Assembly: GCA_009929375.1 (NCBI GenBank)
Contig: SAAO01000008.1
Location: 1 to 64,000, forward strand
DNA from: Bacteroidia bacterium
GTDB lineage: Bacteria > Bacteroidota > Bacteroidia > Bacteroidales > Paludibacteraceae
Length of the DNA: 64,000 bases
Reading direction: 5' to 3'
Shown here piece by piece: positions 32,719-35,127 of this stretch; within the stretch, counting starts at the first letter, position 1, and each line of letters opens with the position of its first letter. The position numbers and the translations under genes were made by a program. The notes below the pieces were generated by a model. It was not told where the DNA came from. It saw nothing but the letters and a program-made list of their open reading frames with translations, and made no database searches.

Positions 32719-33582
32719 ATGAGACAATTAAAAATTACGAAATCGATTACGAATCGAGAAAGTGCATCGCTTGACAAGTATTTGCAAGAGATTGGACGTG
32801 AAGATCTTATCACGGTTGAGGAAGAAGTGGAACTGGCGCAGCGCATTCGCAACGGCGACCGTATTGCACTCGAAAAACTTACCCGTGCGAATCTGCGTTT
32901 TGTGGTTTCAGTGGCCAAACAGTATCAAAATCAGGGCTTAAGTTTGCCCGACCTTATTAACGAAGGTAATCTTGGACTGATAAAAGCTGCCGAAAAATTC
33001 GACGAAACACGCGGATTTAAATTTATTTCGTATGCAGTGTGGTGGATTCGTCAGTCGATTCTTCAGGCTTTGGCCGAACAATCGCGTATCGTACGTTTAC
33101 CTCTGAATCAGGTTGGTTCGCTCAACAAAATCAACAAGGCGTTTTCGAAATTTGAACAGGAAAACGAACGCCGCCCTTCGCCCGAAGAATTGGCTGAGCA
33201 ACTTGATATTCCGGTAGACAAAATTGCCGATACAATGAAAGTGTCAGGTCGCCATATTTCGGTGGATGCGCCGTTTGTGGAAGGTGAGGATAACAGTTTG
33301 CTCGATGTAATGGTAAACGACGATTCTCCTAACGCCGACCGCGCGCTGATCAATGAGTCGCTCTCGAAAGAAATTGAACGTGTGCTTGCACATACACTTT
33401 CGGACAGAGAACGCGATATCGTGAAGAAATTCTTCGGTATCGGAGTGACCGAAATGACACTGGAAGAAATCGGAGACGAGTTTGGACTTACCCGCGAACG
33501 TGTACGACAAATTAAAGAAAAAGCAATACGCAAGTTGAGACCAACTTCGAAAAGTAAATTGCTCAAAAGTTTTCTTGGATAA
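32719..33582 (+). CDS. rpoD: Primary-type RNA polymerase sigma-70 factor
   Basis: [32 protein letters not shown] start typical of the Bacteroidota primary sigma factor; [75 protein letters not shown]. Confidence 0.96.
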
Positions 33583-33590
33583 GAAAAAGA

Positions 33591-33627
33591 AAATCCACCA
33601 CAAGTTGCTTGTTGGTGGATTTTTTTA
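33591..33627 (+). terminator. Terminator of rpoD
   Basis: ATCCACCA / TGGTGGAT stem followed by T tract. Confidence 0.88.
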
Positions 33628-33639
33628 TGCCTTTATTCT

Positions 33640-33672
33640 ACTAATCTGGTGACTACAAGTCACCAGATTAGT
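33640..33672. repeat. Perfect 15-bp inverted repeat with 3-nt loop
   Basis: ACTAATCTGGTGACT-ACA-AGTCACCAGATTAGT. Confidence 0.9.
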
Positions 33673-33728: not shown

Positions 33729-33869
33729 CTGCCTGACTACATACTACTAAGTAGTCACTTTGATACGTACGTATCAAGGTGCTTGACAGGTACGAATCAA
33801 AGTGTTTGATACGTACGTATCAAACCGACAGTATAATGGCTGTGTGAATGACTATAATTAGTCAGGCAG
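33729..33869. repeat. Nested palindromic array: 11-bp inverted repeats enclosing three 18-bp palindromes at 23-bp period
   Basis: CTGCCTGACTA (33729-33739) / TAGTCAGGCAG (33859-33869); TTGATACGTACGTATCAA at 33760-33777 and 33806-33823, degenerate TTGACAGGTACGAATCAA at 33783-33800. Confidence 0.9.
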
Positions 33870-33876
33870 TAAGGCT

Positions 33877-35127
33877 TTATATAGCTGATGGGTCGGTAAG
33901 TTTTACGAAGAAGCGAATGACAAAGCCTATGGCCAGCAGCGAAATGCCATACACTATAACCATAAAGGGCAGCGATACGGACATTGCGACACAGCCTGTC
34001 AGTCCGAGCCAGGGAATTATTCTTCCATAGATTTGCTCTTCGCGTGGTTGGCGAATGGCCGCTACATTGGCTATGCTATAATAAAGCAAAATGGTGAAGG
34101 TGGCTGTGCGCACCACAAACTCGAACGATCCGAAAATGGTGATCAGCAGAATCACAGCACCTGTAAACAGAATTCCTAAATGTGGTACATAGGTTTTGCT
34201 GTGAATCAGTTCGAAAAAAGCTGGTAAATCTTTTCGTCGCCCCATGGCCAGTAGCATACGGCTAATGCCCAGAATCTGACTGAGCAACACACCCAGCATG
34301 GCTGTAGAAGCTCCGAGCGTAATGATAGTGCTTATGCCTCCTGCATTCATTATTCGGGCTGCTTCCTGTAGCGGCGACTTGCTATCGGCCATGCCCGCTG
34401 CGCCCAAAACGCCCACTGCTACCACCGAAACTGCTGCATAAAGTATTATGGCTGCAATAATGGTAATGATAACAGCCCGCGGAATGGTTTTGCGGGGCTC
34501 TTTTACTTCTTCGGCCAGTGTGGCAATACGCGCGTAACCTGTAAAAGCAAAAAACAATATGGCCGACGATTCGGCAATTCCTTTGAGTCCGAAAGGGGCA
34601 AAGGGCTTAAAGTTCACTGCTTTTATGTCGGGAATACCGGCCACTACAAAGTACACAAGTGAGGCTAAGGTGATAAAGACAATCAGAATATTGATGATGC
34701 CGGCCTTTTGAATTCCCCATAAATTAGCTATCGTGAGCAATACCACAGCCGCAATGGAATAAGTCATAGGCGAGGCAAAGGGTAAGAGTTGATGGAAATA
34801 ACTTCCGAAGCCAATGGCTACAATGCCAGCTGCCGATAGTTTGCTGAGAATAAACATCCAGCCAGCCGAGAATCCGGCCGATGGATTAAGGAGTCGGTAG
34901 CCGTATTCGTAAGTGCCACCCGACTGCGGATAAACGGCTGCCAACTGTGCCGAGCTAAGTCCGTTGAAAGAGGCTACAATGCCGGCAATCATTAAACCGA
35001 CTATAAACGATGCGCCCGAAACGCCTGCCGCCACTCCGGTGACTACAAATATTCCGGCTCCTATAATAGCTCCAAGTCCCACGGCTACTGCATCTTTCAG
35101 TCCCAGAACGCGTTTGAGTTTTGTCAT
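33877..35127 (-). CDS. APC-family amino acid permease
   Basis: KRVLGLKDAVAVGLGAIIGAGIFVVTGVAAG, about 12 hydrophobic segments, LFFAFTGYARIATLAEEVKEPRKTIPRAV. Confidence 0.93.
   Translation of the reverse strand: MTKLKRVLGLKDAVAVGLGAIIGAGIFVVTGVAAGVSGASFIVGLMIAGIVASFNGLSSAQLAAVYPQSGGTYEYGYRLLNPSAGFSAGWMFILSKLSAAGIVAIGFGSYFHQLLPFASPMTYSIAAVVLLTIANLWGIQKAGIINILIVFITLASLVYFVVAGIPDIKAVNFKPFAPFGLKGIAESSAILFFAFTGYARIATLAEEVKEPRKTIPRAVIITIIAAIILYAAVSVVAVGVLGAAGMADSKSPLQEAARIMNAGGISTIITLGASTAMLGVLLSQILGISRMLLAMGRRKDLPAFFELIHSKTYVPHLGILFTGAVILLITIFGSFEFVVRTATFTILLYYSIANVAAIRQPREEQIYGRIIPWLGLTGCVAMSVSLPFMVIVYGISLLAIGFVIRFFVKLTDPSAI

Follow-up and report, generated by a model that had tools for sequence, protein, structure and literature searches.

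Tandem repeats of 23 nt are known from BrickBuilt, a minisatellite/MITE of Porphyromonas gingivalis that reaches up to 22.8 repeats and for which no linked HU-DUF4469 gene is reported (PMC4596501). The array described here lies within a window of 64,000 nucleotides, the whole stretch of DNA analysed, from a Bacteroidia bacterium of the family Paludibacteraceae (genome G000). It and its relatives share with BrickBuilt the occurrence in Bacteroidales, the 23-nt tandem repeats, the intergenic position, several dispersed copies, and a leader and tail; tandem direct repeats of 23 nt are present in the window array and in 40 of 47 related arrays. BrickBuilt differs in being one sequence type of one species complex, whereas the arrays here are of many types, and its IS5-like terminal repeats (GAGACC.../...GGTCTC) are absent from the window flanks. 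The symmetry of the BrickBuilt consensus AGAYCATARTATCCTCTCRTRTG (7/9 pairs) is not above chance, and none of the 393 genomes of the order searched for a link with BrickBuilt, the window's genome included, contains that consensus at up to two mismatches.

REP/REPIN elements and their RAYT genes offer a second likeness, a gene flanked by its own palindromes together with gene-free copies dispersed in gene ends. RAYT is a relative of HUH-type transposases, whereas the gene linked to the arrays here encodes HU-DNA_bdg and DUF4469 domains, and the window array has a sigma factor and a permease as neighbours instead of a Y1/HUH transposase gene. REP sequences reach high copy number, in contrast to one to three copies per array type here (two in the window's genome), and the arrangement as tandem units at 23 bp is unlike REP/REPIN. 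ParB-parS and Rep-iteron systems likewise have a DNA-binding protein gene adjoining iterated sites, but for the present arrays no ATPase or replication gene was recognised, and they lie strictly 3' of the gene and differ in sequence between paralogues. No ParA- or ParB-type gene was recognised by eye in the translated open reading frames of the loci inspected; the Pfam scan covered the HU protein, the integrase and the two window neighbours.

HU-DUF4469 proteins belong to the same superfamily and lineage as the HU/IHF expansion of the Bacteroidetes (HU-HIG and relatives). This expansion was reportedly described by Burroughs et al. in 2017, a work listed as reference 82 of PMC5906684, and its proteins are said to have been proposed to recognise invading DNA. 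To our knowledge no cognate DNA arrays were described in that work, and we know of no DNA targets for the HU-like expansion of the Bacteroidota so far. A literature search returned no paper linking BrickBuilt-type 23-nt repeats with this expansion, and none that names DUF4469 or reports on its function.

The features of the window locus, and of the matching locus on contig C61 of the same genome, are as follows.

32719-33582, forward strand: sigma-70 factor gene (rpoD-like), convergent neighbour (Pfam scan)
33591-33626, forward strand: terminator-like hairpin followed by a T run, 3' of the sigma-factor gene and outside the array (read in the sequence)
33729-33739, forward strand: left arm of the outer inverted repeat, CTGCCTGACTA
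33743-33755, no strand assigned: short palindrome ACTACT-A-AGTAGT (read in the sequence)
33753-33827, no strand assigned: stretch common to the window and the HU-linked array, 87% identity to G000:C61:3879-3953
33760-33777, no strand assigned: palindrome unit 1, TTGATACGTACGTATCAA, perfect
33783-33800, no strand assigned: palindrome unit 2, TTGACAGGTACGAATCAA, 6/9 pairs
33806-33823, no strand assigned: palindrome unit 3, TTGATACGTACGTATCAA, perfect
33859-33869, reverse strand: right arm of the outer inverted repeat, TAGTCAGGCAG
33877-35127, reverse strand: amino-acid permease gene, convergent neighbour (Pfam scan)
G000:C61:3965-4699: gene of the HU-DUF4469 protein, with HU-DNA_bdg (PF14848) and DUF4469 (PF14734, Ig-like fold)

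The original prediction, made from the window alone, had described three 18-bp palindromes, two perfect and one degenerate, at exact 23-bp steps, preceded by ACTACT-A-AGTAGT, enclosed by an 11-bp inverted repeat and situated between rpoD and permease genes that both point into the array; all of this was found at the positions above, with a spacing of 23 + 23. The window array is real and not a chance arrangement. Three matches to the palindrome at up to three mismatches were found in the window against 0.04 expected from 100 dinucleotide shuffles. A triple-palindrome score, obtained by doubling the number of paired positions and adding the identity between adjacent units, was 78 for the array; in the 167 kb that cover the window and the rpoD loci, every other place stayed below 60, whichever period from 19 to 28 was used. 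The enclosing repeat was considered as a general feature of such arrays and rejected, most related arrays having none; it is local to the window array. We agree with the earlier view that an ordinary promoter operator is unlikely, that the array resembles iterated protein sites and that it has no named family; a search of the window with Rfam covariance models gave no match at the gathering score. None of the downstream spacers of rpoD inspected in 29 relatives contains an array, and the downstream neighbour of rpoD in these relatives differs from that in the window, so they offer no orthologous spacer for an empty-site comparison. Where an array of the TTGA...TCAA type has three units, the middle one consistently shows lower symmetry (6/9 pairs) than the two outer ones (window 33783-33800; L048, L049, L054, L061, L005). 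A perfect 15-bp inverted repeat with a 3-nt loop, ACTAATCTGGTGACT/AGTCACCAGATTAGT, is located at 33640-33672 of the window, between the rpoD terminator and the array.

The genome-wide search for the 18-mer TTGATACGTACGTATCAA that had been suggested with the original prediction located one further place in the 3.87-Mb genome, on C61, where the 18-mer again occurs twice, 46 bp apart. The C61 array reads TTGATACGTACGTATCAA-5-TTGAAAGGTACGAATCAA-5-TTGATACGTACGTATCAA; its outer units are identical to those of the window array, and the asymmetric middle units, TTGACAGGTACGAATCAA and TTGAAAGGTACGAATCAA, are one base apart. It starts 15 bp past the stop codon of the 244-codon HU-DUF4469 gene, and a tyrosine integrase gene is located on its other side. 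Counted by eye in one orientation, the two arrays agree at 53/54 palindrome and 1/10 spacer positions, and in the reversed orientation at 48/54 and 8/10, so spacer divergence cannot serve as an argument. The window array has no adjoining HU gene; it has at least three palindromes of about 18 bp at a 23-bp period, as HU-DUF4469-linked arrays are defined here, and a cognate gene with a matching array in the same genome. Judged by its sequence, it is a stray or satellite (orphan) copy of an array type whose normal place is beside HU-DUF4469 genes. This genome has a second DUF4469 gene (L107, G000:C105:39049-39348), which is short, at 185 codons, and shows no detectable 3' array.

DUF4469 genes were found in 20 of 48 genomes within the genus, in 18 of 247 from the order and in 7 of 248 from the phylum, and their flanks were compared. 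Three or more imperfect 18-bp palindromes in tandem were detected in 47 of 89 downstream flanks and, at the same threshold, in 2 of 88 upstream flanks (genus and phylum combined), counts that are not fully independent since some flanks come from close species pairs such as G069 and G026. About half of the DUF4469 genes have no detectable array. The period is exactly 23 bp in 40 of the 47 array-bearing flanks. Within the genus, 23 was the best period, above all shuffles, in 33 of 50 downstream flanks; outside the genus it was best in 18 of 39, with five further flanks at 22, 24 or 25. DUF4469-linked arrays contain 3 to 9 units; of 34 arrays, 9 have a first unit that begins exactly 15 bp past the stop codon. 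In the gut species Parabacteroides distasonis five DUF4469 genes were examined and four of these have a 23-bp array, strong in three cases; the contexts are fimbrillin, surface-polysaccharide and ABC-transporter loci. A loose pattern that keeps the geometry recovered arrays in 9 of the 48 genus genomes, several directly 3' of HU-DUF4469 genes and others not, while a reversed control pattern recovered none. The exact two-unit GTAC-type pattern occurs in three contigs among 84,980 species, all of them Bacteroidales MAGs from two of these nine genomes. Arrays that are longer and less regular, composed of TTGAGTCG...ACTCAA units, were observed at L050-L053 and L055 (G026, G069, G070); one follows a broken HU-DUF4469 gene. 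An origin from phages or plasmids was rejected, since viral contigs, phages and plasmids yielded no similar DNA; matches were limited to distant protein homologues in two gut phage records, of which the one examined has no array, and to P. distasonis 'plasmids'. The latter, from TSDC17.2 in PLSDB (NZ_OY725757.1 and sister records), look like chromosome pieces.

Period, symmetry and placement are conserved while the sequence changes between paralogues. Units resemble each other inside one array and are unrelated between most paralogues (TTGATACGTACGTATCAA, CATCACACCACTGTGATG, TAGTGCAGTAGTGCACTA, GAACGATGTACATCGTTC and ATCGGAGCCTAATCCGAT among others). Protein identity and array similarity are correlated (Mantel r 0.41, 0/2000 permutations as high), a relation confounded with ancestry; arrays can be unrelated at 60-70% protein identity, yet the G000 and G011 proteins are 53% identical and 16 of 18 array consensus bases are common to both. 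When clades whose arrays are stable were set against clades whose arrays change, specificity residues did not stand out as a clear cluster. Substitution rates in orthologous arrays of G069 and G026 are mixed: two arrays have 0/72 and one has 10/90, the flanks standing at 3%.

Orphan arrays of matching type were found in G000, G004 (two), G069 and G026 (four array types), and in G076 and G257, which belong to other families of the order; for orphans in G032 and G063 no cognate gene was identified. Orphan units pair at 78% of positions and linked units at 71%, so the orphans, being as symmetric as the linked arrays, are not simply decaying. Some orphan loci, such as rodA-htpG, are common to the related species G069 and G026. 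In the small sample of gene maps read, orphans are most often between convergent or tandem gene pairs, with one divergent pair only.

HU/IHF proteins are dimers, and palindromic sites therefore suit them. A profile of the HU-DUF4469 family matched PDB 4fmr at 1e-56, the match to IHF-beta being non-significant (E 0.3); an AlphaFold2 model from two input sequences had a mean pLDDT of 39. On the whole we judge it rather probable that the cognate HU-DUF4469 dimer binds the array cooperatively, which would mark the gene that encodes it and a small number of remote loci. The analysis shows the array, its link to HU-DUF4469 genes, the placement on one side of them, the constant period, a sequence particular to each paralogue and the orphan copies; binding, stoichiometry, cooperativity and output are what we infer. 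The array would serve as a binding platform of double-stranded DNA in which one dimer of the protein encoded at G000:C61:3965-4699 occupies each 18-bp palindrome as a two-fold site. At least three dimers may sit side by side at the fixed 23-bp step, touching their neighbours every 23 bp (about 2.2 helical turns) and probably joined via the Ig-like C-terminal domain. With the primary copy directly 3' of its own gene the protein would mark its own locus, and orphans such as the window array would be further targets of the same complex, in most cases at the ends of genes. The complex would probably act through local architecture or silencing, as a compact, possibly bridged nucleoprotein patch, rather than by classical promoter repression.

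The original prediction had also allowed for a folded RNA or single-stranded DNA element. Arrays acting as RNA would form 3'-UTR hairpins that stabilise or terminate the transcript, the copies between convergent genes being bidirectional terminators; the 3' position of the arrays fits such a role, as does the very stable folding predicted on both strands (z -6.3 and -7.5), a stability that the palindromes alone explain. RNA hairpins should tolerate G-U over A-C, but the broken pairs of the palindromes on the sense strand of the HU gene show no G-T excess (72 G-T, 66 A-C), and the two-fold symmetry is thus most simply that of a dimer site in double-stranded DNA. A hairpin folded from an 18-bp palindrome would also have a poor loop, nothing about RNA accounts for a period of 23 bp, and a terminator-like hairpin of its own already follows the sigma-factor gene. 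A role as RNA is accordingly disfavoured and very unlikely, and the palindromes look like double-stranded DNA sites rather than RNA hairpins. A centromere-, iteron- or recombination-like site, serving partition, replication or site-specific integration with paralogue-specific sequences that avoid cross-talk, is similarly improbable. The iterated palindromes beside a DNA-binding protein gene, the strong diversification between paralogues of one genome and the accessory genes near several arrays (tyrosine integrase, AbiE, RhuM/KilA-N) would agree with it; but no ParA-, Rep- or recombinase partner common to the loci was recognised, accessory insertions stop about 100-130 bp from the array and not inside it, and the copies are chromosomal and scattered. 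The iteron, parS or integration site named in the original prediction found no direct support.

Mobility is ranked as the second explanation and is compatible with binding. It would make the arrays mobile or formerly mobile repeats, MITE-like as proposed for BrickBuilt, with the HU-DUF4469 gene plus array as carrier and the orphans as short non-autonomous copies. G011 and G004 share, at 92% identity but in unrelated surroundings, a 1.16-kb block of promoter, HU gene, array and about 275 bp; a G004 orphan of about 320 bp is a duplicate in which the final ~50 bp of the HU gene survive; G063 contains two copies of a 327-bp unit; and BrickBuilt itself is intergenic, with a leader, a tail and 23-nt repeats (PMC4596501). 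Against these observations stand the absence of a transposase, the lack of any terminal repeat or flank motif common to the array types (none across 41 loci), the low copy number of one to three per type, the palindromes kept in orphans and the orphan sites common to the related species G069 and G026; as the main explanation, mobility is rather unlikely.

The pairing of HU-DUF4469 with a rapidly changing array sequence appears to be undescribed, and since systems of a gene with its own palindromes exist (RAYT/REP, Rep/iterons), it is a variation on an existing design. HU-fold proteins are regarded as weakly specific DNA benders. If the preferred reading of the array as a dimer-binding site holds, those considered here have evolved many sequence specificities, which would be unusual. 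The arrays provide a concrete predicted target for each paralogue, including those of a common human gut species, so that function is directly testable. A wider proposal, which we put forward tentatively as possible though doubtful, is that these are phylum-wide self-addressing modules, each an HU-like gene with an array read by its own product only, in which the recognition sequence switches fast between paralogues at a fixed 23-bp geometry and satellite arrays bring chosen loci under the same protein. Such modules would, if real, constitute a new kind of system for organising chromosomes, or for marking self and non-self, in a sequence-specific way.

Two differences in gene content near arrays were observed between the related species G069 and G026. 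A module of about 1.3 kb, AbiEi/AbiEii-like, is located beside the HU-linked array in one species, ends at a REP-like palindrome (GTAGAGACGCGATTAATCGCGTCTCTAC) and is absent from the other (L119, G069:C23, compared with L120, G026:C138). Comparison of L249 (G026:C87) with L244 (G069:C25) shows that one species, unlike the other, has RhuM-like and KilA-N-like genes inserted at a distance of about 100 bp from an orphan array.
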